From positions 61,742 to 125,741 of the IMG/VR virus record IMGVR_UViG_3300025669_002088: a stretch of DNA of 64,000 bases. One strand, given 5' to 3'. Of this stretch, positions 32,801 through 54,776 are shown one piece after another. Position 1 is the stretch's first letter; every line of letters begins with the position of its first letter. Source of the stretch: a virus. The notes beneath the pieces are model-generated. The model was given only the letters and a program-made list of their open reading frames with translations. It was not told the origin of the DNA and made no database searches. The translations under genes and the position numbers were made by a program.

Positions 32801-34248
32801 TCCAGGTAGGTAGACAGCGCCTTGGCCACCTCCCGGAAGCGTTTGATCTTCGCCATGAACGGGAACTTCTGGCCCGCTTCCTCAATGATCCTGTTCAACT
32901 CGTCCTTGGACGTTTTGACCTGACCGGACTTCTCCGTGAACTTGAGGCCCGGCACCTCCATCTCATTGAACATCGTCCCAAGCTGCTTCTGGGAGTTCAC
33001 GTCGTAGACTGCAGGCCAGGACTCCTCCCCCTTCAACACGGGGGGCATGCCAGGATTGCGCTTCGTGAGGCTGTCCGCCTTCTCAAGCTGCGTTCGCAGG
33101 AGGTTGTCAGGGTCATTGGCCACAAAGTTCCGCTGGACCTCCTTGTAGAGATCAGGCATCACGTCCCGGCCCAAGATCTTGGACGCCTCCGTGTAGACCT
33201 CTACGATGGAGTCGAACCATTCCTGCTGGCCCAACGAAACCAACTCTTGGACCTTGTCTCGGTTGATGTGGATGAGATTGCGCTCCATCCAACGAGTGGC
33301 TGCTACGCAGACCTTCTCGATCTTGTAGATCGCCGCCTGGCTGATCCCATCCGTGTCCTTTTCCTTGGCAGAGGGCATCAGGACCGGGTCGAGCAGCCAG
33401 GTGCAGATGGCGTCGCTGCATCCGTACCACAGGGCAGGCCCCTCGGTCGGGTCAAGGACCGAGAAGTCATAGTTGAAACCTCGCTGCTCCTTCTTGTGCC
33501 CCCACAACTCGTAGAGGTCGATCATCTCCATGCCCAGACCCGGACCACCCACGGTGTTCTCCGGGGGAGAATCCACGGGAGCTTCGGACAATGCCTTAAG
33601 ACCCCGGCGTCTGGCTCGGGTGTTCCGCATGTAGGCGGCGATGAGGGTGTCGTCCCACATTGCGGGGCGGTCCCATTCACCCCAGGGGATTCCTGTCTCA
33701 TTGAACTGGAGGAACTCCTGGTCAAATTTACCGTTGTGGAAGTCTGCGACGGTGAGACCATCCTCGGTCGCTTTGATGAGCCGCCGGAATTCCCGGTCGA
33801 AGATGCCTATCGGGATGTTGCAGGCTCGGTCTTCCCTGAGTCCGTCCTCCCCCACCTTCACATGATGAATCGGAATGTAATACCCTGTGACACCATCGGC
33901 GCTCAGACAAACGCCAGCAATGTGGTCAACGGTGCAGTAGTGCCCGCTGGCCGTCTTCTTGAGCCGATTGTCCAAACCCGTGGTCTCAAGATCAAGGGCA
34001 TACCGCCCTGATTCGATGCACTCGTCCATGATCTGAGTGATGTTGTCCACGGTCCCGAGGACGAACTTCTTTTCGTCCATCCAGGGTTTCCAGAGCCGCT
34101 GCGGGTTCAACTCGTCGTTGTCCGCAAAAAAGTTGAAGACGTCAATGGCCTCCGGGTCCTCCGTCACGGGTTCTTCGGTCTTTGGGGTGACCTTGGGGGA
34201 TTCCTCTCCGGGAATGAGCATTACCAGACCGTCGTTGTCTTTATCCAT
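29893..34248 (-). CDS. polA: Family A DNA polymerase interrupted by an intein
   Basis: The 1451-residue precursor starts at an ATG behind GGAGG. The 3'-5' exonuclease part shows D-L-E-T-T-G (85-90), H-N-G-K-F-D (171-176) and D-D-T-L-I-A-A-Y. The polymerase part has motif A D-Y-A-G-V-E-L-R (574-581), the O-helix F-A-L-S-Y-G-G, P-I-Q-G, and motif C M-H-D-E-L-V after the intein. Between motif A and the O-helix there is an insert with two Cys pairs (599-632), a probable zinc ribbon not usual in Pol I. An intein (760-1207) sits after P-I-Q-G. The spliced protein would be about 1003 residues and act as replicative polymerase with proofreading. Confidence 0.94.
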   Translation of the reverse strand: MDKDNDGLVMLIPGEESPKVTPKTEEPVTEDPEAIDVFNFFADNDELNPQRLWKPWMDEKKFVLGTVDNITQIMDECIESGRYALDLETTGLDNRLKKTASGHYCTVDHIAGVCLSADGVTGYYIPIHHVKVGEDGLREDRACNIPIGIFDREFRRLIKATEDGLTVADFHNGKFDQEFLQFNETGIPWGEWDRPAMWDDTLIAAYMRNTRARRRGLKALSEAPVDSPPENTVGGPGLGMEMIDLYELWGHKKEQRGFNYDFSVLDPTEGPALWYGCSDAICTWLLDPVLMPSAKEKDTDGISQAAIYKIEKVCVAATRWMERNLIHINRDKVQELVSLGQQEWFDSIVEVYTEASKILGRDVMPDLYKEVQRNFVANDPDNLLRTQLEKADSLTKRNPGMPPVLKGEESWPAVYDVNSQKQLGTMFNEMEVPGLKFTEKSGQVKTSKDELNRIIEEAGQKFPFMAKIKRFREVAKALSTYLESMLLASDPEDDSMRINFNGHKVDTGRFSTPAKESAGDRRKGRMIGWPELNVQSMPNRYDPDRPECMNRLRECFGVRTVPKDAPPRFLVAIDYAGVELRLATNISGEPKWLAEFFHCSSCDRTFERTPRTGADIIATITPVPPPARCPNCGSDKIGDLHTLTGLSIYGADATSRPDWKNLRGHSKATNFALSYGGGGSAVCRATGVDRNEGQRIKNQFDNTYYGLKRWWNSQHKYAKTYGYVRTAFGRKYPVPDIYNEDGGFRSKAERNSVNGPIQGCIRFDERVASSIGLLDIQTLFQRQFPGLLFWTGVKWVAGRVLASGEKLDCCTELSNGNTLHTSPDHQFRVLTEQGLGWVAQKELCSETWVVTNATSVTTTDVPHYQWDRARDPQRGHLFSKGMTSHNAKRFLFAGNSAVLWEFLGAIYGDGSIQQNAFILHIGESNLSKIPAGQRSSEWMLKLNTHLQVEAITRKQRRREDDNRQDMWQVKVLNKDFRTFCRDVLGVLDQTTHTKRFPVALWSETSENRAAFLRGYFDTDGTVSPRTPKKADAAPAFRSANFELLSDTQKLLHSLGIRASLRRRGMWVRVLDRTRFRDLVGSSLDYKRKRLDDMRVGYYHNQRHCLPPFLVKKIGRLVKTSSVYAPLPRAKKSAVLRMVAGAASKEQCLVYFNQLPIEEQPEELRRLLQYDYEKAVLTEQSERTVPMYDVEIFDEDHAFVCNNIIVHNSSADVTKTAMALIYKECKRRGWLDKVAMNITMHDELVFEVDADVLEEAVPVLVDLMVANDYILVKNWPVPFTTDVEIGTDWTVPWDLNAMRYGEVRFHEGKKYGKKKDLPEGVVWDDLPSWPEELAPWFKEAQGAPAAGVSTSLSVAFPKGEAPEVPSVVPVTSLAPTAVPGEDYFFQLPGPMTYKLAGQLAEIIAECHGKGSSPLRLRTVEGIEVEGWLEGLNLTTIRVSPVQLETLIQYVFR
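30628..31971 (-). other. Intein with LAGLIDADG endonuclease in DNA polymerase
   Basis: This 448-residue intein starts at Cys760 (after P-I-Q-G) and ends in V-H-N before Ser1208. It has the splicing block S-P-D-H-Q-F, endonuclease motifs L-G-A-I-Y-G-D-G-S and L-R-G-Y-F-D-T-D-G, and the terminal V-Y-D/M-Y-D-V-E-I block. Removing it restores G-P-I-Q-G-S-S-A-D, the conserved polymerase sequence. Confidence 0.92.
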
Positions 34249-35379: not shown

Positions 35380-36339
35380 ATGGGCAAACGAAAGAACAGG
35401 AGCAGCGGGAAGAGCCGACCCCAGAGCAAAAGGATCGATCCTCGTACTGTCCCGCCGGACCCACCACCGCCCAAACCCATCCCACTGGGGAAGATCCGGG
35501 TCTTGGCCGAGTTCAAAGAGAAGGGCAAACCTCTGGCCATCGGGAAGGCACGACGGAGTCTGGCTCCTCGGTACCGGGGCTACATTTGTTCCGCAGCCTG
35601 GGTGGTCAAGAACACCGAGGAACAGGAGGCCCTCTTTGCGGAGGTGACACAGGAAGTCGGGAACGTCCGATCCCTTTACCACGGGACCACCTCGCGCAAC
35701 ATCGGGGACATCACCCGAAAGGGCTTGCAGACGGGCCGAGGCGGTTGCCTGTTCGGTTCCGGCATCTACATGGGATCCCCCACCAAGGCCTTCGGATACA
35801 CGGGCTGGGGCTGGCGATACCGTGGCGGAGATGCCTGCTATATCCTCCAGGTGGATGCGGCCCTGGGAAAAGTGCTGGAGTGCCCGTCCCCGACAAAGTA
35901 CACCCTGGACAAGGTACAAGCCGAAGGGTTCCACTCGGTAGCCGGGGTGGCGGGCCATACCTCAAGCTGGGGTGGGAAGCTCAAACACGATGAGAATGTC
36001 GTCTACTCACCCGATCAGGTGATCGTGCGGTACATCTTCGAGTACCAAAGGACCGAAGAATATGCTCCTCCGAAACCGCATAAGGGCAAATGCGGGGTGG
36101 TGCGAAAAAAGGACGTCGCCACGAACAAAAGGAACAGGGCCTTCGCAGATATCATCAGCGCCCAAGCCTGTGGGAATGTCGCTTCGATTAAGGTGTGGCT
36201 GGATGATGGAACAACCCGGTGGATCTGCAACACCTGTCTCAGGGAACTCCGGTTGAAAATCGGGACTAAAGTTCTGGTGGAACCAGGGACGTTGGACAAG
36301 GGTCGCCACGTCAAACGGATCATCAGGAAGGTTTCCTAG
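35380..36339 (+). CDS. PARP-like ADP-ribosyltransferase
   Basis: This 319-residue protein starts at an ATG behind AGGAGAGG. Residues 95-220 match the PARP catalytic fold: L-Y-H-G-T (His101, NAD binding), F-G-S-G-I-Y-M (Tyr130) and D-E-N-V-V-Y-S-P-D-Q-V (Glu205, catalytic). The H-Y-E triad is therefore complete, as in eukaryotic PARPs and some bacterial ARTs. It would transfer ADP-ribose from NAD. The basic N terminus and a C-terminal domain with a C-x-x-C (C-N-T-C-L-R) may bind nucleic acid. Phages are known to use ARTs to reprogram host proteins, though PARP-type ones are rare. Copy 4 of the phage promoter motif drives it. Confidence 0.85.
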   Translation: MGKRKNRSSGKSRPQSKRIDPRTVPPDPPPPKPIPLGKIRVLAEFKEKGKPLAIGKARRSLAPRYRGYICSAAWVVKNTEEQEALFAEVTQEVGNVRSLYHGTTSRNIGDITRKGLQTGRGGCLFGSGIYMGSPTKAFGYTGWGWRYRGGDACYILQVDAALGKVLECPSPTKYTLDKVQAEGFHSVAGVAGHTSSWGGKLKHDENVVYSPDQVIVRYIFEYQRTEEYAPPKPHKGKCGVVRKKDVATNKRNRAFADIISAQACGNVASIKVWLDDGTTRWICNTCLRELRLKIGTKVLVEPGTLDKGRHVKRIIRKVS

Positions 36340-36887
36340 AGTTTCACCAGCGACCCATCACACAATACGTTCAGCCAGTCATAACGGGCATCCAGGGGAT
36401 GCTCGCTGTAGGGCTTCCCACACGTTTGACAGACGACATCCCCAGCGGCGTGGCTGTACTCCGGCGGGTCTTCAATACCCTGGACCTGGAAGAAGAAGTC
36501 GGAACTGCCACCTTGTGTGACGGTCTCCTTGGCGGGACACCCCTCCACACAATCCCAGATCTCCACATAACCTGCACTATCCACGATGGTGCCCTGTTCT
36601 ACAACGTCAAGGGTAGACATCGGACGACGCCCCTTCAGTTTGCACTGTGGGGTGTGCTCCAACACAAGGTTGGCGGGCCAACGTCCAACGACGGGACGAG
36701 CAGCACCCTCCTTCATTCCGACCCCCTTGTCGTTCCAGTTCTTGAGGCCACCCCCACGTCCACCCCAGCCCGCTTCGTCTGAACCGATCCGACAACCGTC
36801 GATGTTCAGACCTCCTGTGCCATGTGCCAGAACGTTCTTGGCCACGGACCCGATGAGGGGCTTTCTTGCAACATGGATAACGATCAT
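36336..36887 (-). CDS. Split methyltransferase array: recognition module B6
   Basis: This 183-residue protein begins M-I-V-I-H-V-A-R-K-P-L-I-G-S-V and continues G-T-G-G-L-N-I-D-G-C-R and G-R-W-P-A-N-L-V-L, the part that follows the DPPY half in one-piece beta-class methyltransferases. The DPPY motif and the SAM-binding motif are absent. Unlike other B modules it has a C-terminal four-Cys/His site (C-Q-T-C...C-D) instead of the usual S-R-F-F-K end. It probably contributes to target recognition in a complex with A and C proteins. It is the last gene of the operon and overlaps B5 by ATGA. Confidence 0.75.
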   Translation of the reverse strand: MIVIHVARKPLIGSVAKNVLAHGTGGLNIDGCRIGSDEAGWGGRGGGLKNWNDKGVGMKEGAARPVVGRWPANLVLEHTPQCKLKGRRPMSTLDVVEQGTIVDSAGYVEIWDCVEGCPAKETVTQGGSSDFFFQVQGIEDPPEYSHAAGDVVCQTCGKPYSEHPLDARYDWLNVLCDGSLVKL

Positions 36888-37483
36888 GATCGACCTCCGA
36901 TCCTTTTGAAGTATCTCGATGCTCCCCCGGTATCCACATAACCGCCAGGGACTCTCTTGAAGCGCCAGTCCTCTCGGGAGGGATCAAGATGCTCCCCTGC
37001 CCCCTCTTCTACTCTAACCTGGCTCGTGGAAACACCACTCTGTCCATCCAGGGCCTGAACGGGGCAACCCGGAGCACAATGCCACGTCTCCACCGGCTCC
37101 TTCCCATCCGCATCCGTGTGGTTCACCTTCTCGTAACCAGGAGGTTTGTGGTTGAACTGGATGTGACCATCCGCTTGTTCCTTGACCGTGTGCCCCTTGA
37201 AACCATCCACCATCACCGTCCCCAACCGAACGCAGTCAGGGTGATGCTGGAGGATCAGGTTAGCAGGCCAACGTCCCGCAGAGGATGTCGCCCCACTCCC
37301 CGTGGAGCCTCCAGTGATCCGCCAGTTCTCTCGATCTTCCCGGTCCTTGTACTCCCGCTCCTTCCCCACCTCAGTGGTTCGGAGGCGACAGGCACCAATG
37401 TTCAGACCACCCGTTCCGTATCCCATCACAGTTTGGGCCACAGTGCCCTCCAAGGGCTTCCTGGCAACGGTGATCACGATCAT
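36884..37483 (-). CDS. Split methyltransferase array: recognition module B5
   Basis: This 199-residue protein opens with M-I-V-I-T-V-A-R-K-P-L-E-G-T-V and G-T-G-G-L-N-I-G-A-C-R, then has G-R-W-P-A-N-L-I-L, a variable Asp/Lys-rich middle, C-A-P-G-C-P and the end G-G-A-S-R-Y-F-K-R. In fused enzymes this last motif (S-R-F-F-Y-C-A-K) leads into the SAM-binding part; here the gene stops. It is probably a target-recognition subunit. It overlaps both neighbours by four bases. Confidence 0.78.
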   Translation of the reverse strand: MIVITVARKPLEGTVAQTVMGYGTGGLNIGACRLRTTEVGKEREYKDREDRENWRITGGSTGSGATSSAGRWPANLILQHHPDCVRLGTVMVDGFKGHTVKEQADGHIQFNHKPPGYEKVNHTDADGKEPVETWHCAPGCPVQALDGQSGVSTSQVRVEEGAGEHLDPSREDWRFKRVPGGYVDTGGASRYFKRIGGRS

Positions 37484-38136
37484 CGCTTCACCTGTTTGAA
37501 GAACCTGGATGCCCCACCGACGTCACCATACCCTGGGGACTGTCCAGCGAAGCAGTAGCAGGCACCCGTGCCCCCTGAGATCTTGTCCCGATCCGCCCCA
37601 CGATCTACAGGAGGAGACTTGTGAACACCGCTCTGGGCATCCAACATCAAAACGGGGCACCCTAGATCACAATGCCAGTCAGGAACCGTCTCCATGCCCT
37701 CTGCGTCGGAATACCCATAGATTCCGGGAGCGTCTCTTTTCAATCCTACTGCCCCCACCTTCGTTGGGAGAGATCCGGCGACCGTATTGACGAGAGAAGC
37801 ATTGTTGGTCCCCTTTACCCTCTTTTGGCCCCGGCAAGTACAATCCACTGAATGTTGGATGATCAGGTTGGCGGGCCACCGACCCAGTGAACGAGTCCGC
37901 TCGATGCTCTCCCGCTGGGCTTGTTTAAACCTCTCATCATTGGACCGACTCCAGAAGGTCAGGTCTCGGTCTCCTCCCGTCCGGTTGTCCACAGAGGAGA
38001 TCAACGGGGTCACGAATGACTCGCCCTCGGTAGAGATGCGGCAACCGTCAATGTTCAGTGCGCCCGTTCCATGCTCCTGCACAGTTTGGGCTACAGTACC
38101 ACTCAGAGGTTTACGGGCTACGGTGATGATAATCAT
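37480..38136 (-). CDS. Split methyltransferase array: recognition module B4
   Basis: This 218-residue protein begins M-I-I-I-T-V-A-R-K-P-L-S-G-T-V...G-T-G-A-L-N-I-D-G-C-R. G-R-W-P-A-N-L-I-I follows and the end is G-G-A-S-R-F-F-K-Q-V-K-R. The insert between G-R-W-P-A-N and the C-terminal end differs from the other B modules, as expected if it sets sequence specificity. There is no catalytic or SAM motif. It is preceded by a small unrelated gene that separates it from A6. Confidence 0.78.
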   Translation of the reverse strand: MIIITVARKPLSGTVAQTVQEHGTGALNIDGCRISTEGESFVTPLISSVDNRTGGDRDLTFWSRSNDERFKQAQRESIERTRSLGRWPANLIIQHSVDCTCRGQKRVKGTNNASLVNTVAGSLPTKVGAVGLKRDAPGIYGYSDAEGMETVPDWHCDLGCPVLMLDAQSGVHKSPPVDRGADRDKISGGTGACYCFAGQSPGYGDVGGASRFFKQVKR

Positions 38137-38423
38137 CGGTGTTTGTACTCCATCTGACCTTCTTGCCAGTAGACTCCCGCCCGGATTAGCTCCACCAAGG
38201 CGTTGAGTTCCTTTCCGTCCAACCCGATGCTGGCCTTCTTCAAAATGTCAACCATGTCCGGTCGTCCGAGTCGTCCTAACTCGGCGTAGATGTCGTCTAG
38301 TGGGGCAAAGGTTGGGAGCGATTTGATCTGCTGGTCCCATTCCGCAGCCGTCTCGTGGACGAGTTCTGAACCTCGGGACGTATAGGAAACGACCCACTCC
38401 ATGTCACTAAGATCTGGCATCAT
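38133..38423 (-). CDS. Small unknown protein inside the methyltransferase array
   Basis: This 96-residue, acidic, helical protein starts at an ATG behind GGAGG and overlaps A6 and B4 by four bases each. It has no resemblance to the A or B modules and no recognised motif. It may be a passenger or an accessory subunit. Confidence 0.65.
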   Translation of the reverse strand: MMPDLSDMEWVVSYTSRGSELVHETAAEWDQQIKSLPTFAPLDDIYAELGRLGRPDMVDILKKASIGLDGKELNALVELIRAGVYWQEGQMEYKHR

Positions 38424-39229
38424 GGCCTCCTTGCAACCAGGAAGGGCTCCCAGGCGGGTTTTAGGGCTGTACCCCTACCCACCCATCGGATGGCGTCAGA
38501 AGTCACAGGGACGCCACCCTCTTTGTCATAGTACCCCTGCTCCCGAGCGAGCCTCATCCAGGGTCGATCCCCACCCTCTATGTCCTCGCCCCCGGCGATA
38601 CTCTTCGGGTTCCGACCGGCACCACTACCCACGATCCGAACCATCGCTCGTGTCGCTCCGTGGTGTTTGTCCAAGGCCCGTGAGACGTCGTGGGACTTCG
38701 GGAAGCCGGATCCATAAACCCACGCTTCGATCCGCAGCATCTCGAATCCCACGGCAACCATCGCTGCGGCCAACCGATGGAACGTCCGAGACCCACTGAA
38801 GATCTTAGCGATCCCGCCGGGATGAAGGATTCTGTAGACCTCCTGAAGCCACTCCTCGTGCCACGCTTGCATTGCGGCGACGTGCTCTAGCGTCCGGTTC
38901 TCCCACTCGGGCGTGGGACACACGCAGGGGTTCCCGCTGAACTTGTAGTGTCCGCACTTGGTGCAGTGATCATTCCGCTTCGGGATGTAGGAGGGTAGCT
39001 CACCCATCCTGGCCCCGAAGTCACCGCCGACGCCGGACCCGTCCCCGATGAGTTTCCGTTCCGTGCCTTTCCAGCGCTGCTGATTGCGGCGGGGTTCGAG
39101 CTTGTCCCACTCCCGACCCATGAACTCCAAGCCATAGGGGGGGTCACTGACGAGCGTCCCGATGGAACAATCAGGAAGAGCCCTCATCCTCTCTACACAG
39201 TCCCCGAGTTGAAGTTGCACTAGAGACAT
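38420..39229 (-). CDS. Split methyltransferase array: catalytic module A6
   Basis: This 269-residue protein starts at an ATG behind AAGGAG. It has L-G-D-C-V near the start, motif IV S-D-P-P-Y-G-L-E-F-M, a four-Cys zinc-like insert (C-T-K-C...C-V-C), L-H-P-G-G, a F-H-R-L-A helix and Y-G-S-G-F-P-K. It ends G-T-A-L-K-P-A-W-E-P-F-L-V-A-R-R-P. This is the N-terminal half of an N6-adenine methyltransferase (D-P-P-Y flips and holds the base). The SAM-binding motif I is missing. It must work with other subunits. Confidence 0.82.
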   Translation of the reverse strand: MSLVQLQLGDCVERMRALPDCSIGTLVSDPPYGLEFMGREWDKLEPRRNQQRWKGTERKLIGDGSGVGGDFGARMGELPSYIPKRNDHCTKCGHYKFSGNPCVCPTPEWENRTLEHVAAMQAWHEEWLQEVYRILHPGGIAKIFSGSRTFHRLAAAMVAVGFEMLRIEAWVYGSGFPKSHDVSRALDKHHGATRAMVRIVGSGAGRNPKSIAGGEDIEGGDRPWMRLAREQGYYDKEGGVPVTSDAIRWVGRGTALKPAWEPFLVARRP

Positions 39230-39849
39230 GCCTGTCTCCTTGCTACAACCAACGACTCCCAGGCCGGACGAAGAGATGTACCGTAACCGTCAAAGGTCCG
39301 GGCTATATCGCTCCGAGCAACCGTGACTGGAACGTCCCCCTGGTGGTAGTTGTTCCAACGCTCCCAATAGGCTGCTCCCCCGTGTAATCCCTCATTCTCT
39401 TTCGTCCGACCCGCAGAAATGACCCGACGGTTGTGGCCTACGACAGGACGAGTTTTTTCGCTGACAGCCAGAGCCACCGAGTTGCTTTTTCCCGTCAACA
39501 CCTCTGAGTCTACAGCCTTGGAGACACTCAGTGATTTGGGGAAACCGCTACCATATAGCCAGGCCTCCACATGTAGGATCTCAAAGGACTGAAAGGACAT
39601 CGCAACTATCAAATGATGCATCAGCTTAGGGGCAGTGAACACCTTGATGAGACCCCCCGGTTGGAGCACCCTAAATGCCTCCCCTAACCACTGTGAGTGC
39701 CATCCCTGTGTCCCGTCTCGGAAGTGATCCCACTCCTGATTCAAAAAACCAAGGCCGTAAGGTGGATCACAGACCACAACCCCCACAGACTCGTCAGGAA
39801 GCTCCTGCATCAGAGTAACGCAGTCCCCGAGTTGGTATTGGATGATCAC
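39220..39849 (-). CDS. Split methyltransferase array: catalytic module A5
   Basis: This 209-residue protein uses a GTG overlapping the A4 stop (GTGA), behind AGGGAG. It has V-C-D-P-P-Y-G-L-G-F-L, L-Q-P-G-G-L-I-K-V-F and Y-G-S-G-F-P-K, and ends L-R-P-A-W-E-S-L-V-V-A-R-R. It lacks the Cys insert of A1, A3 and A6 and is the most diverged A module (G-F-L-N-Q instead of E-F-M-G). No motif I is present. It overlaps A6 by ten bases. Confidence 0.8.
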   Translation of the reverse strand: MIIQYQLGDCVTLMQELPDESVGVVVCDPPYGLGFLNQEWDHFRDGTQGWHSQWLGEAFRVLQPGGLIKVFTAPKLMHHLIVAMSFQSFEILHVEAWLYGSGFPKSLSVSKAVDSEVLTGKSNSVALAVSEKTRPVVGHNRRVISAGRTKENEGLHGGAAYWERWNNYHQGDVPVTVARSDIARTFDGYGTSLRPAWESLVVARRQACL

Positions 39850-40517
39850 AGCGGTTTTCTCCCTACCAGGAAGGGTTCCCACGCAGGCTTGAGCGCTGTG
39901 TTGTACCCAGCATAGCTCTGGGCCTGGGGGGAGGTCGGGGCCGTGATGTCCCACTGCTGACCGACAGTGTCTTCCTGCTCCCACCACATCGGCTGGGGAC
40001 AGCGACCTTTGCGTTGCCCTACCGCCACTACAGTGCGCTCAACCCCAAGATGCTTATCCAAGGCACGGGGCACGTCGAGGCCCTTCGGGAAACCTGAACC
40101 ATAGTCCCAGATCTCCAGACGGAGGATCTCCAATCCAGCCTCGGTCATCGCTCCAGCGAGCCTGTGGAAGGTCCGGGTGGCACTGAATATCTTGGCGATC
40201 CCTCCTGGCTGAAGGATGCGGTGGACTTGCTGGAGCCACTGAAGGTGCCACGCCTGCATCGCCCGCTGGGAATCCAACGTCAGATCCAACGCAGGTTTGC
40301 CCGCATGGATGCCGTGATTCATCCCCCTCGTAGAACGAGAGGTGGAGGACTCGGATGTGTTCGGACGGGAAGCGCTCCCCCGCATGTCTAACTTGTCCCA
40401 GTCCTCACCCATGAACTCCAGCCCATAAGGAGGATCGCTGACCACCGCCCCGATGGAGCAATCTGGGAGGGTCTTCATCCGCTCTACACAGTCCCCCAGT
40501 TGAAGCTGTACGATCAT
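39846..40517 (-). CDS. Split methyltransferase array: catalytic module A4
   Basis: This 223-residue protein starts at the ATG overlapping the FmdB-like stop (ATGA). It shows S-D-P-P-Y-G-L-E-F-M-G, L-Q-P-G-G-I-A-K-I-F, F-H-R-L-A-G-A-M and Y-G-S-G-F-P-K, and ends L-K-P-A-W-E-P-F-L-V-G-R-K-P-L. The final G-R-K-P-L duplicates the A-R-K-P-L with which B modules begin, marking where the ancestral gene was cut. No motif I or HPTVKP is present. Confidence 0.82.
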   Translation of the reverse strand: MIVQLQLGDCVERMKTLPDCSIGAVVSDPPYGLEFMGEDWDKLDMRGSASRPNTSESSTSRSTRGMNHGIHAGKPALDLTLDSQRAMQAWHLQWLQQVHRILQPGGIAKIFSATRTFHRLAGAMTEAGLEILRLEIWDYGSGFPKGLDVPRALDKHLGVERTVVAVGQRKGRCPQPMWWEQEDTVGQQWDITAPTSPQAQSYAGYNTALKPAWEPFLVGRKPL

Positions 40518-40693
40518 GAGGAGTATCCGTCGTTTGCCCAGCCGCCGCCTGCCAGCTTGAAGGTGGACTGGGAGACCTTCTTCTGGACCTGGTCCCCCCC
40601 GCACTTGGGACAGGGAAGGGTCGGGTCGTCTACTTTGACAAGCTGTTCAAAATCATGCTCGCAATCAGGGCAGCTATATTCGTACATTGGCAT
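40514..40693 (-). CDS. FmdB-family zinc-ribbon protein
   Basis: This 59-residue protein matches the FmdB family end to end: M-P-M-Y-E-Y-S-C-P-D-C near the start, L-P-C-P-K-C-G-G and the C-terminal F-K-L-A-G-G-G-W. Four Cys form a zinc ribbon. FmdB proteins were named as putative regulators but their role is unclear. It sits between modules B3 and A4 of the methyltransferase array and overlaps both, so it may belong to the complex. Confidence 0.85.
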   Translation of the reverse strand: MPMYEYSCPDCEHDFEQLVKVDDPTLPCPKCGGDQVQKKVSQSTFKLAGGGWANDGYSS

Positions 40694-41138
40694 GGGAATC
40701 ACTCACCTGTTTGAAAAACCGAGCCACCGAGCCTGTGTCCCCTACTCGGGCGTTTGCGCCGAAACCATTGAACAACCAATCGGGATGCTGACTCAAACCG
40801 TACTGAGGTGCCCTTTGGCTTCCTGCACTGTGAGCACCCACAAGCGCCCCCTGGTGGGACATCTCAGGCACGGGACAATCCCCCTCACAGTCTACTCCGC
40901 AGCCAGGTGCATGGGAGAGGATCAGGTTAGCAGGCCAGCGGCCCGTGAAGGTCTCGGGGTGGTAGGAGTGCCCGGCACCCCCGCCGAAGGGCTTAGAGCC
41001 GTCATCCCACCTGTTGACCGTAATCGGTTCCGAGCCGACCCGACAAGCATCGATGTTCAAAGCGCCTGTGCCCCATCGTTGCACGTTGGTGGCAACGGAA
41101 CCTTCTAAAGGCTTCCTGGCGACGGTGATCACGATCAT
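40674..41138 (-). CDS. Split methyltransferase array: recognition module B3
   Basis: This 154-residue protein begins M-I-V-I-T-V-A-R-K-P-L-E-G-S-V...G-T-G-A-L-N-I-D-A-C-R and has G-R-W-P-A-N-L-I-L and C-G-V-D-C-E-G-D-C, ending near A-R-F-F-K-Q-V plus a short extra tail. Its second half is nearly identical to that of B2, while the stretch between C-R and G-R-W-P differs completely. This is the pattern expected if that stretch sets specificity after duplication. Confidence 0.8.
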   Translation of the reverse strand: MIVITVARKPLEGSVATNVQRWGTGALNIDACRVGSEPITVNRWDDGSKPFGGGAGHSYHPETFTGRWPANLILSHAPGCGVDCEGDCPVPEMSHQGALVGAHSAGSQRAPQYGLSQHPDWLFNGFGANARVGDTGSVARFFKQVSDSHANVRI

Positions 41139-41587
41139 CGCTTCACCTGTTTGAAGAACCGAGCCGCAGAGCCTGTATCCCCTATGCGGGCATTTGCACC
41201 GAAACCATTGAACAACCAATCGGGATGCTGACTCGGACCATATTGCGGAGCCTTCTGACTTCCTGCACTGTGGCTTCCCACAAGGTCTCCCTGGCGAGCC
41301 ATCTCGGACACGGGACAACCTCCTTCACAGTCTACTCCGCAACCGGGTGCATGGGAGAGGATCAAGTTAGAAGGCCAACGTCCCAACTGTGATGGTTGAG
41401 ACATCCTGCCGTTTCTACCGTCTGCGTCAAAGGGAGCATTTCCAGCCGCTCTGTTCCATTGTGGGACGGAGGGTGGAACACCAGTAACTCGACAACCGTC
41501 GATGTTCAGCCCCCCGGCACTCCATGTGAGAACCGTAGCAACAACTGTCCCGTCCAGGGGCTTCCTGGCGACTGTGATGATGATCAC
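41135..41587 (-). CDS. Split methyltransferase array: recognition module B2
   Basis: This 150-residue protein starts at a GTG overlapping the A3 stop (GTGA). It begins with I-I-I-T-V-A-R-K-P-L-D-G-T-V and G-G-L-N-I-D-G-C-R, has G-R-W-P-S-N-L-I-L and ends A-R-F-F-K-Q-V-K-R. The C-terminal half is a near copy of B3. There are no catalytic motifs. Confidence 0.8.
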   Translation of the reverse strand: MIIITVARKPLDGTVVATVLTWSAGGLNIDGCRVTGVPPSVPQWNRAAGNAPFDADGRNGRMSQPSQLGRWPSNLILSHAPGCGVDCEGGCPVSEMARQGDLVGSHSAGSQKAPQYGPSQHPDWLFNGFGANARIGDTGSAARFFKQVKR

Positions 41588-42351
41588 GCCCGCCTCCCCA
41601 CCACGAAAGGCTCCCAACAGGACTTGAGGGCAGTTCCGTAGCCCCAGAAGCGGAGACCCTCAGGAGACGCTGGGACCGTCACGGGCACGTCAGTGGCCTT
41701 TTGGTGCGCCCCTACCACCCCCCGTGCGATCCCACCGAAACCGAGACTGTCTAGTGCCATGACGCCCCTTTTGTGCCCTATGACCTTCCGCTGGTCAAAG
41801 ACCCCCTTGGTCATGTCAATGGCCCTGGAAATGTTGTGGTTCTTGGGGAACCCTGAGCCATACACCCAAGCCTCCAAGCGGAGCACCTCGAACCCGGCAT
41901 TGGTCATCGCTGTCGCCAGCCTGTGGAACAGCCGGGGGCTGCTGAATGCCTTAATGAGCCCACCGGGCCGCAGGACACGAAGAGCCTCAGACAACCAGCC
42001 CTCATGCCACTGTTGGATGGTCCTGTTCTGGATCGCTTTGAAGTTAGGAAGGTCGGGAATGGCACACTGGCACTTCCGCTTCTCCTGATCCCAAAGCCAG
42101 CGGTTACAGGTCCGACACTTGAGGTTGGCGCTGGCCCCATAGTTGGGTCGCCCAGCGTTGGGTCCGGTGCCGGTGGAGAACCCGCTGTTGCTCATCTGCC
42201 CAACGTGGCTGTCGCCCGTGTCGAGCTTGTCCCACTGCATCCCCATGAACTCCAGCCCATAGGGAGGATCACTGACGATGGAGCCTACGGACCCCTCGGA
42301 CATTGACTTCATCAGGGCAACACAGTCCCCAAGTTGAAACTGGGTTATCAT
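41584..42351 (-). CDS. Split methyltransferase array: catalytic module A3
   Basis: This 255-residue protein starts at the ATG overlapping B1 (ATGA). It has S-D-P-P-Y-G-L-E-F-M-G, a four-Cys insert (C-R-T-C...C-Q-C), L-R-P-G-G-L-I-K-A-F, F-H-R-L-A-T-A-M and Y-G-S-G-F-P-K, and ends L-K-S-C-W-E-P-F-V-V-G-R-R-A. This is the catalytic half of an adenine methyltransferase without motif I. Confidence 0.82.
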   Translation of the reverse strand: MITQFQLGDCVALMKSMSEGSVGSIVSDPPYGLEFMGMQWDKLDTGDSHVGQMSNSGFSTGTGPNAGRPNYGASANLKCRTCNRWLWDQEKRKCQCAIPDLPNFKAIQNRTIQQWHEGWLSEALRVLRPGGLIKAFSSPRLFHRLATAMTNAGFEVLRLEAWVYGSGFPKNHNISRAIDMTKGVFDQRKVIGHKRGVMALDSLGFGGIARGVVGAHQKATDVPVTVPASPEGLRFWGYGTALKSCWEPFVVGRRA

Positions 42352-42779
42352 CTCGTTACCTGTTTGAAGAACCTGGATGCCCCACCGACGTCACCCGCAT
42401 AGTTCGTGGCACTCCCGGTACACCAGCCAACGACCCCCAGCCCAACGACCAACTTGTTGGCGTTTGACCCGCCGTTCTTCGTAACGCCACTCTGATTGTT
42501 TAACTCCCTGACGGAGCAATCTCCCTGGAGGATGAAGTTAGAGGGCCACCTTCCGGCAACATGTGAGGTGTACCGTTCCCCAACCGATCTCATCACCACT
42601 GGACCCTGCCAGTCATAGTCAACAGAGGTACCTCCGCTACGACTGTCTATAACTGCCCGTTCTGTGTCCCCAATTTCCAGTCTACAAGCATCGATGTTCA
42701 AAGCGCCTGTGCCCCATCGTTGCACGTTAGTGGCAACGGAACCTTCTAAAGGCTTCCTGGCGACGGTGATCACGATCAT
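42348..42779 (-). CDS. Split methyltransferase array: recognition module B1
   Basis: This 143-residue protein starts at the ATG overlapping A2. It begins M-I-V-I-T-V-A-R-K-P-L-E-G-S-V...G-T-G-A-L-N-I-D-A-C-R, has G-R-W-P-S-N-F-I-L and ends G-G-A-S-R-F-F-K-Q-V-T-R. The first 32 residues are nearly identical to those of B3, but the rest differs, evidence of shuffling among modules. Confidence 0.8.
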   Translation of the reverse strand: MIVITVARKPLEGSVATNVQRWGTGALNIDACRLEIGDTERAVIDSRSGGTSVDYDWQGPVVMRSVGERYTSHVAGRWPSNFILQGDCSVRELNNQSGVTKNGGSNANKLVVGLGVVGWCTGSATNYAGDVGGASRFFKQVTR

Positions 42780-43396
42780 TTTCGCCCCACCAGGAAGGGC
42801 TCCCACGCTGGTTTCAGCGTTGTTCCATATCCCTTATATTTCTTGGCGCTGTCCGAGGCAGGCTCCGTGATAGGGACCACAGAACGATCAGTCAGGTCAT
42901 CCGGGTTGTTCCAGTTGTAACACCCGGAGCCGGTGTTCCCATGACCCTTGCGGGTGGAGAGAACCTCCCGTTCAGCACCAAGCGACTTGTCCAGGGCCTT
43001 GGCGACATCCAGGCTCTTCGGGAAACCCGAACCATAAACCCAGGCTTCCAGGCGTTCGATCTCGAACCCTGCCTGAACCATCGCCGCACCCATCCGGTGG
43101 TATTTTCGTGTGCCACCGAAAACCTTGATGAGGCCCCCTGGTTGCAAGACACGATGGCACTCACGCAACCAGATCGTTGCCCACTCCTGAAAGGCACGGC
43201 TGTCGGAGGCACACCCCGTGTATTCCTCAGTGTTCTCCGGTTCCATGCCCACTTCTTTCCAGGGGGCATCCCAGCTCTTCCCCATGAATTCCAGTCCGTA
43301 GGGAGGATCGCAGATGACGGCTCCGATGCACCCCTCCGGGAGATCCCGCATCAATCGGGCGCTGTCTCCGAGTTGTAACTGAAGGAGTTTTCTCAT
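42776..43396 (-). CDS. Split methyltransferase array: catalytic module A2
   Basis: This 206-residue protein starts at the ATG overlapping A1. It shows I-C-D-P-P-Y-G-L-E-F-M-G, L-Q-P-G-G-L-I-K-V-F, Y-H-R-M-G-A-A-M and Y-G-S-G-F-P-K, and ends L-K-P-A-W-E-P-F-L-V-G-R-K. There is no Cys insert and no SAM-binding motif. It is directly followed by B1, so an A-B order like that of the ancestral fused enzyme is kept here. Confidence 0.82.
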   Translation of the reverse strand: MRKLLQLQLGDSARLMRDLPEGCIGAVICDPPYGLEFMGKSWDAPWKEVGMEPENTEEYTGCASDSRAFQEWATIWLRECHRVLQPGGLIKVFGGTRKYHRMGAAMVQAGFEIERLEAWVYGSGFPKSLDVAKALDKSLGAEREVLSTRKGHGNTGSGCYNWNNPDDLTDRSVVPITEPASDSAKKYKGYGTTLKPAWEPFLVGRK

Positions 43397-44115
43397 ACCA
43401 ATGCCTTCCTCCCTACTAGGAAAGGTTCCCAGCAGGACTTCAATGCTGTGCCATATCCGTCGCACAGGACGGGACTGTCATCAGGGAGACCCAACCGTTT
43501 CCGCATGGACCGCCCAACATCCAGGGACTTGGGCCAGCCTGAACCATAGGTCCAGGCATCGATCCGTAGGATCTCAAACCCGGCCTCTCCCATCGCCCAA
43601 GCCAGCCTGTGGAACGTTCTCGTTCCGCTGAAAATCTTAGCAATCCCACCTGGCTGGAGTACTCGCAGGGCGCTCTTCAACCAGAGAGTGTGCCACAGAC
43701 CAATGGCCAGGAGATGATCCTGCATCCCACCACCTGTCACACCATCTGGGGTGTCCTCAGGCAGCTTGCGCCGCTTCCCAATAGGCTTCCAATGATCGTG
43801 GGGTCTCTCACAGGGACATTTGCGCCGTGTCCCCCGCTCCATCCCACCACACACTGAACACGTTCTGTTGGGAGTGCTGTACCGAGAGGTGGATGAATAC
43901 TTGGGTAACCGAAGGGCACCATCGCCTTCTTTGAACCCCTTGAAGTTCCTGATGGACTTGGGGACTTTGTCTCCAAGTTTCTCCCAGTCAAGGGCCATGA
44001 ACTCCAAGCCGTAAGGTGGGTCACAAACGATGGCCCCCACGGAACCCTCCGGGAGAGCATCCATCAGCACTGTGCAGTCCCCAAGTTGAAGCTGTGTGCA
44101 ACTGTAAGCGCCCAC
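43393..44115 (-). CDS. Split methyltransferase array: catalytic module A1
   Basis: This 240-residue protein has a GTG start behind AGGGGG. It has V-C-D-P-P-Y-G-L-E-F-M, a four-Cys insert (C-S-V-C...C-P-C), L-Q-P-G-G-I-A-K-I-F, F-H-R-L-A-W-A-M and Y-G-S-G-W-P-K, and ends L-K-S-C-W-E-P-F-L-V-G-R-K. It is the first A module after the SAM-binding gene, from which it is separated by nine bases. Confidence 0.82.
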   Translation of the reverse strand: MGAYSCTQLQLGDCTVLMDALPEGSVGAIVCDPPYGLEFMALDWEKLGDKVPKSIRNFKGFKEGDGALRLPKYSSTSRYSTPNRTCSVCGGMERGTRRKCPCERPHDHWKPIGKRRKLPEDTPDGVTGGGMQDHLLAIGLWHTLWLKSALRVLQPGGIAKIFSGTRTFHRLAWAMGEAGFEILRIDAWTYGSGWPKSLDVGRSMRKRLGLPDDSPVLCDGYGTALKSCWEPFLVGRKALV

Positions 44116-44124
44116 AATGTCCCC

Positions 44125-45474
44125 CTAGAAAAACACATCGAGTTCAGGCTCTTCCTGAGGCTCTTCCGTGACCAACAGGGTGGTGCCCACGTCCGAAATG
44201 ATGATGGGACGACTTCCCTCGTCACCGAGAAGGGTTGCGGAACCCTTCTTCGCTCCGAGCCTGCTGCGCCACAGTTCGGCCCGAGCGGTGGCGATCTCCA
44301 AATAGGGTTCCTCCCGCTCCATCCCCCTGAAATTGTGGCCTGTCTCCATGCACGCCAGCCCTGTGGACCCGGAACCCAGGAAGGGATCGAGGACCATATA
44401 GGGGTCCAGCACGTCCGACGCCTTAGTGTCCACCGTGGGGGTAGGCACCTCGAAATCCTCAGGGGTCTTGGGCACGTCATGGAGGATTTTTACCATTAAA
44501 TCAACGGGTTTTACCGTTGGATGAAAGTTCCGAATTCTGCTGTTACCGTGCCCGGCCCCCGCCGCACCGTGAGCGGTTCCAGCGTCCCCCTCCTTCCGAC
44601 CTACGGCCTCCGCTCCGCTCTTCCCACCCAGGGCATCACAGCCCAGTTCCCGCTCGCCCCTGTCGGCCTTGGGAACGTAGTGGAAAGGATGACAAGGTGG
44701 TGTGCTCGCTGAGGGAAGCTTCGCCAACTCATCCAACGGCAGGGCAATGGCAATGGCGTCCCTGATCTCGAACCCGGAATCCTCTACACTGCAAGCACCC
44801 GTCGATCCCCACGGTTCTGCATCAGGAGCGATAAGCAGGAGATGTGCCCCAGGTTTCAAGACTCGGTGCAACTCCTTCGACTGCTCATCGGTGGGCGTCC
44901 CCCGTGTGATCAACCCGCACAGCGAGTTGTCTGGGCGCTTGGCCCATTCAGCCCACTTGATAAGCGCTAAGTCCTCAAGATAAAGGGCCTTCTCGTCCGG
45001 CGGGGAGATCAAGGTCAACAAATAGCTGATCAGATCATCCGGGGGTGTCCACCCTTCCGAAGCATATGGGGGGAGTTCTACTTCTGCGGTGGACTCAGGA
45101 GTAGACCAATCGAAGTCCCGCTTCTCCTCTGGAGGCGTCCAACCCGTTGCCTGAACGGGAGGTACAGGGTCGATCAAGTCCTCGATACCCCATGGCTCCG
45201 TCTGCGGCGGCAAACAGGTACCCAGCAGATCCTCCTTGGATTCGTATCCTGTTGCAACAGCAGGAGTCGGAGCCTTTACTGGAGTCTCCTCCAGGATCTC
45301 AACAGGAGTTTCCACAGGAGTCTCGATCGGGGTCTCCTCAGGGGGGAGTTCTACTTCTGCGGTGGACTCAGGGGTAACTAACAGACACTCCTGTGATGTT
45401 TCCACCGAGGTCTTGACCGAAGTCTCCGCTGGGGTGTCCGTCTCGGGGGTAAGGAAGTCAAAAAGGTCTTTCAT
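44125..45474 (-). CDS. Split methyltransferase array: shared SAM-binding subunit C
   Basis: This 449-residue protein has residues 1-140 acidic and Thr/Pro/Glu/Val-rich, with an internal duplicated T-P-E-S-T-A-E-V-E-L-P-P. Residues 145-245 resemble a worn A module (L-H-R-V-L-K-P-G-A-H-L-L, G-F-E-I-R-D-A), but motif IV reads S-P-P-D, without the aromatic residue. At 264-277 comes F-H-Y-V-P-K-A-D-R-G-E-R-E-L, exactly where the B modules stop, then N-F-H-P-T-V-K-P (316-323) and the SAM-binding motif I D-P-F-L-G-S-G-S-T-G (363-372). This is the only such C-terminal part in the array. It probably serves all A and B modules. Confidence 0.85.
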   Translation of the reverse strand: MKDLFDFLTPETDTPAETSVKTSVETSQECLLVTPESTAEVELPPEETPIETPVETPVEILEETPVKAPTPAVATGYESKEDLLGTCLPPQTEPWGIEDLIDPVPPVQATGWTPPEEKRDFDWSTPESTAEVELPPYASEGWTPPDDLISYLLTLISPPDEKALYLEDLALIKWAEWAKRPDNSLCGLITRGTPTDEQSKELHRVLKPGAHLLLIAPDAEPWGSTGACSVEDSGFEIRDAIAIALPLDELAKLPSASTPPCHPFHYVPKADRGERELGCDALGGKSGAEAVGRKEGDAGTAHGAAGAGHGNSRIRNFHPTVKPVDLMVKILHDVPKTPEDFEVPTPTVDTKASDVLDPYMVLDPFLGSGSTGLACMETGHNFRGMEREEPYLEIATARAELWRSRLGAKKGSATLLGDEGSRPIIISDVGTTLLVTEEPQEEPELDVFF

Positions 45475-45485
45475 TGTAGTCCTCG

Positions 45486-48400
45486 TCAGTCCAGTTTCTT
45501 AATCTTGTCCAATTGATTCCCTACCGATTCCTGCTGCTGCGCTGACATAACCGGATCGCTGCTTGTGAGAAGTCTCCGGCATGGCCACTCTACCCGTGCG
45601 TTGAACATCTCGAAGGGCTTTTGGTCACGAGATTTGAGGCATTGGAACTGCACCCGGTTAGCCTTTGACAGTTCCTCATCGATCCAAGATGCCGTCACCA
45701 CATCAGCGGAACGCTCACAGTTGTGGGAGAGCAACGGCCCCGTCTGGTACTCGTGATCCCCCCCTACCTCCAGGTCATACACAGGGGCAATCTCCCCCGT
45801 AGGATCACACGCAACAACCTGTAGCACATGCCAGTTGTCCAACATCTGTTGGAGGAAGGTTGCATCCTCATCCTGAACACCTCTACGGTGTAACACGTCC
45901 AGGACGTACCGCACGGTGTCCTCAGGAACGACACCCCTTTGTTTCACACGATGCACCTGATTGTATAAGGACCGTCGAACAGTCCCATCCTTAACCAAGC
46001 GATACGGAAGATGCCTTTTTACGAGTGCCCGGAACATCTTCGGGAAGGGGTAGACCTGATCCGAACGTTTCCTCTTCGGCACGGTATTCAACCGCTTCAT
46101 CGCTCGTTCCTGTTTCCAGGGCTCACTGAAACCCACCAATCGAACGAAGGAGCAACAAGATTCCCAACCCCTTATCCGCAAAGTCCATACAGTGTAAGAT
46201 TTATTCGTTACCTCCAGCTTCTGTTGCCGTGACGACAAATGCGAATCTATCCCCATGGCCTGGAACAACAGTTGGACCTGTCGCAAGAGAGAATCCGTTT
46301 TGGAGGAGACTCCGATAATACCCCGATTGTTTATCCAACCATCAGTATCGAAAAGACCTTTCAGGAAAAAAATGACAGACTGTTGGGATGCTTCTCGCAC
46401 TATCCGAGGTACTGCAACACATCTTTTTTCCGCCAAGTCCTCGAACCAACGTTTAAAGGATGCGTCGTACAACTCCATGTCAAAGGACCCTGGCCGACTG
46501 GCATAATGGTAACAGGCGACCTTTTTTGCCCCATGCACCCTTTCCAGCGAGTTTATGAGCAACCTTTCAATTGTGACTTCCTTTCGATTCTCCGTGAAGG
46601 CAACACCATGGGGTCTCACAGAACCATCCCCATGCCAAGCCCCAAGCAGATATGCCAGGTCATCACTCAGAGATACGGTATTACCCCAAGACTCAGGAAG
46701 TACAGGAGTCACCTCTGGGAAGGATCCCCCACGAGAACCAAGCAACCAGTCTCCTGGTTTCAGGTTTTCCACCTGTTCCCATTCGAGTTGCTCTTCACGG
46801 AACACCCGCACACGATGGTCAGCGGTACATTCTAATTTAGAACCTCTGTCGGTTTGAACACACCAGATGGGCCGATCTCCCTGAGGATAGACCCCCAACA
46901 CATCCTTCCACCCGGTATTGGACCAGACCCGGTCTCCCACCACAGCTTCACGGATAGGAAAGGCCCCACGGGCAAAGCGTAGTAATGTCAGGGACTTACA
47001 ACACTCATTGCTATATGACAAATGAGTCAGATCATAGCGGGCCACACCACCCTTATCCTTGGATTTCATCGCAGAACGATAGCCCTCACGATTGATCTGG
47101 AACAGGGCCACTACGGGCAGACCCTGACCCTTGTTAAAGGACATTGCCATCCGCTTGAGATCCCGGATCACCTCGTTCAGCCGGTCGGTGGTGCTGGAAA
47201 CCCACTTGCGTGGGGCCATCAGTCCGGCGTGGTCTACAAAAACAAGGCTGAAGGGATCTTGGCTGAACAGCAGTTCCGCTTTCTGCCGCATGTCGATCAC
47301 GGTGAAGTCGCTTTTTTCCGGGTCCGCCACCTCGATGTGGATCCTCCCGTAGTCACAAAACCAGGGCTGCCCCGTTTCGGGGTCTTTGGTCTTGATCACG
47401 GGGATCCCGTTCATGTCCGGGATCACAAAGTCCTCTAAGAATTTCTCAGCCTCAGGGTGCCACTCGGCCAGTGTGCCATCTCGAATGTTGACGTAGGGGA
47501 GGCCCACGGCGGAGGTGGGATCCTTTTGCAACCCCATCTTGTGTCTGATTGCATCGAACTTCCTGTGGAAGGAATGCATCGAGTACAAGAGACGTCGACA
47601 CTGCTGATAGGGCATCTCCAAGGAGAAGATCAGAGAGTTCCATTTGTACCAGATTGCCTGATTGTATGCCCAGTTCAACATCAGGGTCGAGTTGTGCACA
47701 ATGAAGCCGTTAGCCACAAAGTTTGCGGTACCAGGTACGGAGAGGTCATACGTCATCTCCCCCCCATCAGGAACAATCTCCACCAAACGATCCCAATGGA
47801 TAGTGCTTTGAACTTTTTTAAGCGCTATCGGATTTGCTGACGCCAAAGCTAAACGAACAGCGGTGTCACGTTGAATCGCTCCTTTGCGTTTAGCATGTCG
47901 AGCATAGTGCCACCCCCCTTGGCGGGTTTTAGCTCTTACCGAGTCATCTATCTCAGAGAGCAATGCAGGGGGTACCCAATCTGTCCCCTCATTGGAAGAA
48001 ACTGCTGCAAGAGCTTCTTTAACAAAAGCTCCCTTCCCTGCTATCCTGACATGAGACAGAAATTGTCTCTTACCCTCATTGGTAGTCACTAACAGAGTCC
48101 AATATCTTCGGTACTCCCCCTGATAGAGAACATTGATCGGAGCGATGGTCGAGGACACACCCACTCGTTGCAAAAGAGCTTGGATGTCCCAGGCGAGTCG
48201 TCTGCTTTTTGTCGTGTAATGTGCTTTCGGTCTAGGACGCCTTCCTCTGCCGGATGTCTCAGTCCTAACTGTCCCGTCTGCAGCCCATAAAGCAGCTAAA
48301 AGCACCCACACCTGTTTGTCCGTCATCTGCCACATTTCGAGGGGGATATGTTTGTCCCCTGATGTGCAACCCCATAACCCCAATCTTTCTAGTGTCAGTC

Positions 48401-49643: not shown

Positions 49644-50560
49644 CGCTTTTTACCCCACTTGTTCTTCTTCTCCGGGGCATCCCCCTCCGTACCATCCAGC
49701 ATACTGAACGTCCCATTTGCTAAGGGGCTGGGACCAACCACCTTAACAGGTGACCCCCCCGCAACTTCCTCCTCAAAGGCTGCTGCCGTCTCGTCTGCCA
49801 CCTCCTGCATGGGTGGGCGTTTCGTCCGGGATGGGGACCTCGTCGTTGGTACTACCCCAGAGGGGACGCCGGGAACCACAGGGAAGGCCGCATCCGTCTT
49901 CTCAGGCAATGTCAGATTGTCCCACTCGCTCAGGAATTCCCCCACTGAATGACTGTACGAAATGTGCCCTTCCTGCAGGGGATACGAGGGCGAGTCAACC
50001 ACCCAGGTCACCTTGTTGAGGTGCTCCCGGTGCCGCAGGGCCTCCAACAACACCTCGGGCATCGCCTCGTTCCGAGCAGCCTTGACCCCGCACACAAGGA
50101 CCAGAAGGACCGGGGGTTCCACAAGATCTACCAAGGCATCATATCGTTGGATATCAGCCCGCTGTCGCATCTGATCCACGTCAGCGTCCTTGACATCCAG
50201 CTTGTAGGACAACCAGGCATCCATCAGATCCGCATCGGACACCACGAGAAAACCCCAGGTCGGGGGCATTCGAGCAGCGACATGTTTCATGTGACTGCGG
50301 AAAGTAGGGCGAGATCCTGTGATCTTGAGGTTGCTTTCGGTAAGGTCGTCACCTCGAAGAGGGGACTGGTCTACGGGGTCAGCGGACAGGAGGCCCTTCC
50401 ACCCCCTGTTAATGTTCCGAGCTACATCCCGCACCATCACGCAGGGGCACGGTTGTGTCCTGTCTATGGGATGATCCAATCCCATAGACAGAGGGATTAC
50501 TCCACGCCCTTTGCAAATTGGGCAATCAGGAGTTCCATCCCCCTGTGGGTAATCCGTCAT
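49640..50560 (-). CDS. Helicase-loader-like protein with zinc motif
   Basis: This 306-residue protein starts at an ATG behind GGAGG. Residues 10-40 hold C-P-I-C-K-G-R-G...C-P-C, a DnaJ-like zinc-binding pair. Residues 95-205 look like an AAA+/DnaC-related loader core (L-V-V-S-D-A-D-L-M-D-A-W, P-P-V-L-L-V-L-V-C-G, T-W-V-V-D-S-P), but I see no P-loop. The C terminus is a disordered, charged tail. Its position between two helicases in one operon fits a role in loading DnaB. The assignment rests mainly on layout. Confidence 0.65.
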   Translation of the reverse strand: MTDYPQGDGTPDCPICKGRGVIPLSMGLDHPIDRTQPCPCVMVRDVARNINRGWKGLLSADPVDQSPLRGDDLTESNLKITGSRPTFRSHMKHVAARMPPTWGFLVVSDADLMDAWLSYKLDVKDADVDQMRQRADIQRYDALVDLVEPPVLLVLVCGVKAARNEAMPEVLLEALRHREHLNKVTWVVDSPSYPLQEGHISYSHSVGEFLSEWDNLTLPEKTDAAFPVVPGVPSGVVPTTRSPSRTKRPPMQEVADETAAAFEEEVAGGSPVKVVGPSPLANGTFSMLDGTEGDAPEKKNKWGKKR

Positions 50561-54732: not shown

Positions 54733-54776
54733 CGGCACCTCCCTCCTGTACTACTCAACCGGGAACGAAAAAGGAG

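Follow-up and report, generated by a model that had tools for sequence, protein, structure and literature searches.

A putative modular DNA methyltransferase divided among three kinds of genes in a viral genome

What could a virus do with thirteen genes that each encode part of a DNA methyltransferase (MTase), when no one of them encodes the whole? The question is raised by a stretch of 64,000 nucleotides (hereafter, the window), positions 61742-125741 of the 125,741-base virus record IMGVR_UViG_3300025669_002088. Within it, 15 coupled genes on the minus strand span 45474 to 36336, and 13 of these are MTase modules, located just where an earlier reading of the letters alone (the original prediction) had placed them. 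They are of three kinds: six A modules bearing a catalytic motif, six B modules predicted to recognize the target, and a single C module bearing the motifs for binding S-adenosylmethionine (SAM). I judge it rather probable that the locus encodes a modular three-component MTase of the beta class, in which different A and B modules are swapped on one C, yielding several specificities to set against host restriction.

An enzyme in pieces

The modules run in the order C A1 A2 B1 A3 B2 B3 (zinc ribbon) A4 A5 A6 (96-residue gene) B4 B5 B6, where the parentheses mark two unrelated small genes, at 40514 (62 amino acids) and 38133. Most genes in the array start within the stop codon of the preceding gene (ATGA or GTGA), and for some the true start lies inside the listed open reading frame (43396, 42779, 41587, 41138, 40517, and 39849).

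All six A proteins in the window carry DPPY (motif IV), as had been claimed for them, and the invariant residues of A include as well GD, YGSG-P-K, and W-E. They match only the N-terminal part of the Pfam family PF01555. The ending ascribed to them, WEPF-V-R-K/R, needs loosening: the proteins end at, or a few residues beyond, W-E-(P/S)-x-x-V-(G/A)-R-(K/R), and the fifth A, at 39220, deviates, closing with WESLVVARRQACL. The B proteins match the N-terminal part of phrog_3008 (PHROGs) and share VARKPL, G-LNI, and GRWP, the last found in six of six. They were thought to begin at VARKPL but in fact start five residues upstream, with M/V-I-(V/I)-I-(T/H)-VARKPL. Five have the expected kind of end (RFFK in four, RYFK in one), while the B at 36336 has a different tail (phrog_11394). 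As foreseen, HPTVKP (motif X) and DPFLGSGSTG (motif I) occur once in the array, in C (44125-45474), and the C-terminal part of PF01555 is matched by that gene alone (at residues 312-396, E=1.4e-11). No chain in the window has both DPPY and motif I; the beta-class motif set is present jointly, in no single chain. The only MTase family found for the pieces is PF01555 (N6/N4) and its relatives, not the C5 family.

One-piece N6/N4 MTases of phages (PF01555, phrog_67; for example, the mycobacteriophage "DNA methylase", HindIII-like) have the same motifs in the order DPPY, YGSGFPK, WEP..VARKPL, GRWP, ARFF, HPTVKP, DPFxGSGSTG, and A, B, and the tail of C align to their successive parts. To call the modules consecutive pieces of such an enzyme is right as to order but not as to the cuts. 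The last strand of A and the first strand of B are homologous (WEPFLVGRK / MIVITVARKP), a duplication over the A/B cut, and the RFF end of B resembles the FHY/FYY strand of C, a duplication at the second cut too. The array differs from the one-piece enzymes in having three kinds of genes, multiplied A and B modules, strands duplicated at the cuts, and an extra, dead half in C.

The dead half of C

C had been taken for the C-terminal third of the enzyme and nothing else, and here the original prediction fell short. Upstream of HPTVKP, at residues ~148-250, lies a dead copy of the A half (A'), followed by the strand FHYVPKAD. Alignment with C proteins of other phages identifies it by an L-x-PG-H stretch and by ED-GFE(V/I)RDAI. 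Where DPPY would be, this phage has LITRG, two others (L154 and L197; L numbers are labels of viral loci in the comparison set) have LVTRG, and most others LLGEP. The dead half has neither the last strand of A (WEP..V.RK) nor a recognition domain. Among the modules examined, DPPY is present in all intact A and missing from all C, and C retains HPT-KP and motif I. The dead half is strongly conserved and is therefore probably functional. The ~145 N-terminal amino acids of the window's C are a low-complexity, TP-rich extension absent from the other C modules aligned.

The best profile and fold matches of the modules are the solved beta-class enzymes CcrM, M.RsrI, M.MboIIA, and M1.HpyAVI. These are single chains of single specificity, with no split and no pseudo-half, unlike the system in the window. 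By profile comparison, A corresponds to CcrM residues 16-132 and C to 76-265, so that the two overlap at 76-132. CcrM dimerises through its MTase domains, and the overlap includes the reported interface residues Ile110, Asp113, and Phe130 (PMC6787082).

Some C tails (GQVSLF, SIFDLF) are possible beta-clamp-binding motifs. A separate one-piece PF01555 MTase elsewhere in the window (18887-20263, minus strand), with a TSPPF motif (cytosine-N4-like), has a C-terminus, LILDLFGE, that resembles several of these tails (SIFDLF, QVSLF) and possibly binds the sliding clamp.

Variable modules

The ends of B modules are conserved and two middle stretches are variable, the pattern one would expect if they are recognition domains. 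B3 matches B1 at 99% identity through its first 96 bases and B2 at 85% identity from base 195 to base 436. It is a mosaic of the two, and it follows that recognition modules recombine. B6, with its replaced end, is probably an altered or decaying recognition module.

The A modules have a distinct subtype, with Y-x-SGMP-x-G-N in place of YGSGFPK, plus LKKSWEP, that adjoins normal A modules in several phages (Table 1) and perhaps differs in function or target class. In another virus (L183:2140-2652), the tail of a B module is followed by an additional copy of the last segment of A (WDGWGTALKPAWEPVCIGVKK).

The split form in other viruses

The original prediction suggested that related phages be searched for the same split. 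A DNA pattern for the start codon and first strand of B, plus later searches, found the split form in about 37 viral contigs, the largest of 290, 312, 376, 402, and 536 kb; the whole C protein, used as a query against viral contigs, retrieved no relative. The cut points, constant in the window, are conserved across these contigs. Chance is excluded by this recurrence in dozens of other viral contigs, together with module profile E-values that reach, in the present record, 7e-77 (A), 3e-56 (B), and 1e-83 (C). The ordinary one-piece form occurs at about 150 other viral loci. In 33 of 33 split-form records searched whole there is exactly one full C, accompanied by 1-6 A and 1-7 B, which bears out the claim of a single shared SAM subunit.

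Other features speak to how the pieces work together. Of 81 pairs of neighbouring modules, 54 overlap by either four bases (48 pairs) or one (6 pairs); the starts (n=121) are ATG in 107 cases, GTG in 12, and TTG in 2. Minimal cassettes of one A, one B, and one C exist (e.g., L207, L211), and one of each is thus enough to make a unit. Fusions of B with C occur at L201, L212, L230, L259, and L260, and at L236 all three are fused in one chain of 564 amino acids. The fusions argue that the pieces belong to one machine. Since the L236 chain retains the duplicated strands and the dead half, it looks to have been fused from split parts rather than to be ancestral.

Outside this set the split form did not appear. 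Megablast of the array DNA against phage records gave no match. Records of isolated phages gave one-piece relatives only, none covering 80% of C, and the 485-kb uncultured phage LR745208 also carries a one-piece enzyme. Contigs of bacterial and archaeal genomes gave 17 matches, all one-piece enzymes or broken copies, with no C having a dead half. Searches of the open-access literature for split or modular phage MTases found no description of such an array, of a shared single C, or of the dead half; the original prediction, too, knew of no described array. In PHROGs, A-like proteins (phrog_6025) and B-C-like proteins (phrog_3008) form families of their own, so pieces have already been catalogued.

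Predicted fold

Can A and C together make the fold of a whole enzyme? The chain modelled with AlphaFold was the natural A-B-C protein of L236, not the window's separate subunits, and its input alignment included five one-piece enzymes. (A joint alignment of all modules onto the fusion was discarded because it placed A rows wrongly, over B or over the dead half of C, and a smaller alignment was used.) The model has a predicted template modelling score (pTM) of 0.72; the predicted local distance difference test (pLDDT) is about 90-95 for three cores (A, pseudo-half, C tail) and low for the recognition domain. In PDB, Foldseek ranks CcrM first (E 1.9e-10); small beta-class enzymes give alignments of about 530 columns, with target-normalised template modelling (TM) scores up to 0.70. 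Only by combining A (about 1-170) with the C tail (about 470-535), and leaving out everything else, can an alignment of this length be reached. Matches of about 240-250 columns, read as pseudo-half plus tail, reach TM scores of only 0.32-0.35, and a B-C fusion modelled without A only 0.25-0.30, with a pTM of 0.35. Taken together, these values favour A completing the SAM half of C. METTL3-METTL14 is among the weak matches of the A-B-C model. As modelled, A and the C tail appear to form the canonical beta-class fold. Another idea considered was that the SAM half of C is completed by its own dead half in place of A; the comparison of the A-B-C and B-C folds leans against it without settling the matter.

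A model for exchangeable parts

I propose that C is the single obligatory platform, whose tail would bind SAM through motifs X and I. Its front, the pseudo-catalytic half, would have kept the fold and the CcrM-type dimer-interface region, although it no longer has DPPY, the final core strand, or a recognition domain. A would dock its DPPY half onto the SAM-binding half of C to form the active site, and B would dock on the pseudo-half, supplying the missing core strand (MIVITVARKPL) and a target-recognition domain. The homodimer of known beta-class enzymes would thereby be rearranged into separate, exchangeable parts. Swapping A and B on one C would produce several specificities, and phage DNA methylated during replication would be protected against several host restriction systems. 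The array sits after a DnaB-type helicase and before a DNA polymerase, all on the same strand, a position that fits expression with replication.

The steps of this model do not all deserve the same trust. Motifs and profiles support the view that A, B, and C belong to a single beta-class MTase, of which C is the single shared SAM-binding part, and the enzyme is probably of the adenine-N6 class. It is likely that an MTase could be reconstituted from the parts. That A and B pair combinatorially and that the phage uses the result against restriction is plausible. Taken to its limit, the model has any A working with any B on the single C, so that 6+6+1 genes could give up to 36 MTases, with recombination making new recognition modules, the whole having arisen more than once in large phages as a programmable kit against restriction, built on a pseudo-MTase platform. 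I offer this last version only tentatively.

Several points weigh against the model. The five one-piece enzymes in the alignment favour packing A on the C tail, the root-mean-square deviations of the Foldseek matches are high (10-14 Å), and the poor quality of the B-C model makes its failure to form the domain weak evidence. DPPY fits adenine-N6, yet cytosine-N4 is also possible. Finally, equal numbers of A and B, as in the window and several other records, would fit fixed pairs as well.

If A, B, and C do reassemble, they constitute a natural three-part split MTase with exchangeable catalytic and recognition parts and a catalytically dead platform. The model, if true, would show how large phages could get past several restriction systems at a small cost in DNA, and it would supply ready-made parts for directing DNA methylation to chosen targets. 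It would also allow a direct test of the way in which beta-class enzymes share out catalysis, recognition, and dimerisation. The system is overlooked by annotation pipelines, which call its pieces separate or partial "DNA methyltransferases".

Fixed pairs, relics, or binders

Suppose instead that every A has a single cognate B as its only working partner and that C is common to all. The array would then encode several ordinary specificities that save genes by sharing one subunit, and free recombination would play no part. Besides the equal numbers (six and six in the window), the frequency of A-then-B neighbours would accord with this, as would the persistence of particular A subtypes together across L185, L199, and L211. 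However, A and B are equally numerous in only roughly half of the 33 records. B outnumbers A in about twelve (2 A and 7 B in the L154 contig, 1 and 7 in the 536-kb contig) and A outnumbers B in about five (4 and 3 in the 290-kb contig). Module content and order are also shuffled among relatives with similar C (81-97%): AABC in L185, ABAC in L199, and ABC in L211. Fixed pairing is a serious contender, if on balance an unlikely one.

A second possibility, considerably less probable, is that in each phage one A and one B are active with C and the others are duplicates being lost. B6 has indeed lost its conserved end, a frame change divides one A in L209, and some A modules, such as the one at 39220, are very diverged. 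Nonetheless, all 12 A and B frames in the window are open, with DPPY kept in six of six A and GRWP in six of six B despite differences of roughly 40-60% between paralogues. In a tree of A modules, the window's six form one clade (97/98), those of L154 and L197 another (100/100), and subtypes common to several phages a third, large one, from which it follows that multiplication probably occurred independently at least three times. Inteins tell a similar story. In two distant phages they interrupt C between HP (NFHP/THP) and TVKP (L154:8406-10241, L231:5337-7250), and they interrupt A within YG/SGFPK in two phages (L229, L258) and in the same region of A in two more (L182, L212). Their presence at the same active-site motifs of A and C in different phages implies that these sites are conserved.

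It is quite improbable that the proteins methylate no DNA at all, the B modules being sequence-specific DNA binders, or decoys of host restriction or bacteriophage exclusion (BREX) enzymes, for example, on a pseudo-MTase platform. C is pseudo-catalytic and B outnumbers A in about a dozen records, but the catalytic DPPY of A and the SAM motif of C are kept in every record examined, and all 33 records have at least one A, which a pure binder would not need. That errors of sequencing or assembly, or frameshifts, broke ordinary one-piece genes, common as those are in phages, can be dismissed, because all pieces begin with a start codon of their own at a constant position (n=121), the cuts are flanked by duplicated strands, the dead half is present in C without exception, and the pattern recurs in independent contigs and lineages.

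Comparison with other divided methyltransferases

M.AquI and M.EcoHK31I are cytosine-C5 MTases made of two polypeptides that must associate (PMC3404938). The catalytic core in the window is likewise divided over separately translated genes, but the C5 enzymes come in two pieces of one copy each, with no pseudo-catalytic half and no array. The phage C5 MTases of SPR, SP-beta, phi3T, and H2 of Bacillus have several recognition domains on one catalytic core (cited in PMC8936443). The six predicted recognition modules for one C recall this arrangement; in the C5 enzymes, however, the recognition domains stand in tandem in one chain, whereas B modules are separate genes and the catalytic halves are multiplied too.

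Type I systems have a separate specificity subunit, HsdS, and recombination of recognition modules in hsdS creates new specificities, much as proposed here. HsdM is of a different class, however, and complete by itself, whereas in the array the catalytic domain is split and C is shared. No array protein in the window matches a Type I family, and none is an HsdM-like chain with a complete SAM site. METTL3-METTL14 and MTA1-MTA9 also pair a catalytic with a pseudo-MTase half as a working unit, but their partners are full-length, with an unsplit SAM site, single copies, and RNA or eukaryotic targets.

The array and its neighbours

Table 1. Modules and inserted genes of the array, with loci of the variant A subtype in other phages. 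Roles of A, B, and C are predicted.
Element	Position	Strand	Basis
C, platform subunit	44125..45474	-	PF01555 at residues 312-396; alignments with L154 C (intein removed) and 14 other C modules; C-family profile match to CcrM
A1, catalytic half (GD..DPPY..YGSGWPK..WEPFLVGRK)	43393..44115	-	Pfam, motif, profile
A2, catalytic half; ATGA overlap with A1 stop	42776..43396	-	Pfam, motif, profile
B1, recognition module; first 96 nt (5') 99% identical to B3	42348..42779	-	PHROGs, motif, profile, DNA comparison
A3, catalytic half	41584..42351	-	Pfam, motif, profile
B2, recognition module; 3' half 85% DNA identity to B3	41135..41587	-	PHROGs, motif, profile, DNA comparison
B3, recognition module; mosaic, 5' from B1, 3' from B2	40674..41138	-	DNA comparison
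Zinc ribbon (PF09723), 62 amino acids; inserted gene	40514..40702	-	Pfam
A4, catalytic half	39846..40517	-	Pfam, motif, profile
A5, most diverged catalytic half; ends WESLVVARR	39220..39849	-	Pfam, motif, tree
A6, catalytic half	38420..39229	-	Pfam, motif, profile
Gene of 96 amino acids within array	38133..38423	-	No match in PHROGs or Pfam
B4, recognition module	37480..38136	-	PHROGs, motif, profile
B5, recognition module	36884..37483	-	PHROGs, motif, profile
B6, recognition module; RFFK end replaced by another tail	36336..36887	-	PHROGs, motif, profile
Distinct A subtype (Y-x-SGMP-x-G-N)	L177:129-713, L188:1380-1967, L201:6056-6652, L209:4666-5262		

A plus-strand gene at 35380-36339, which runs toward the end of the array from the other side, encodes a PARP (ADP-ribosyltransferase) catalytic domain (PF00644, E=5e-10), which is unusual for a phage. 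The DnaB-type helicase (45486-49643), another helicase (50557-54738), and the DNA polymerase (29893-34248), all on the minus strand, have 1,385-1,451 amino acids each, and the two helicases seem to contain intein or LAGLIDADG-like insertions. Also on the minus strand are two TnpB/IS605 OrfB-like proteins with a Cas12f1-like TNB domain (7164-8585, 14225-15496) and three HNH endonucleases of related families (23630-24892, 56208-57419, 62725-63915), the first of them RRXRR-HNH (Pfam), dispersed in the manner of homing endonucleases.

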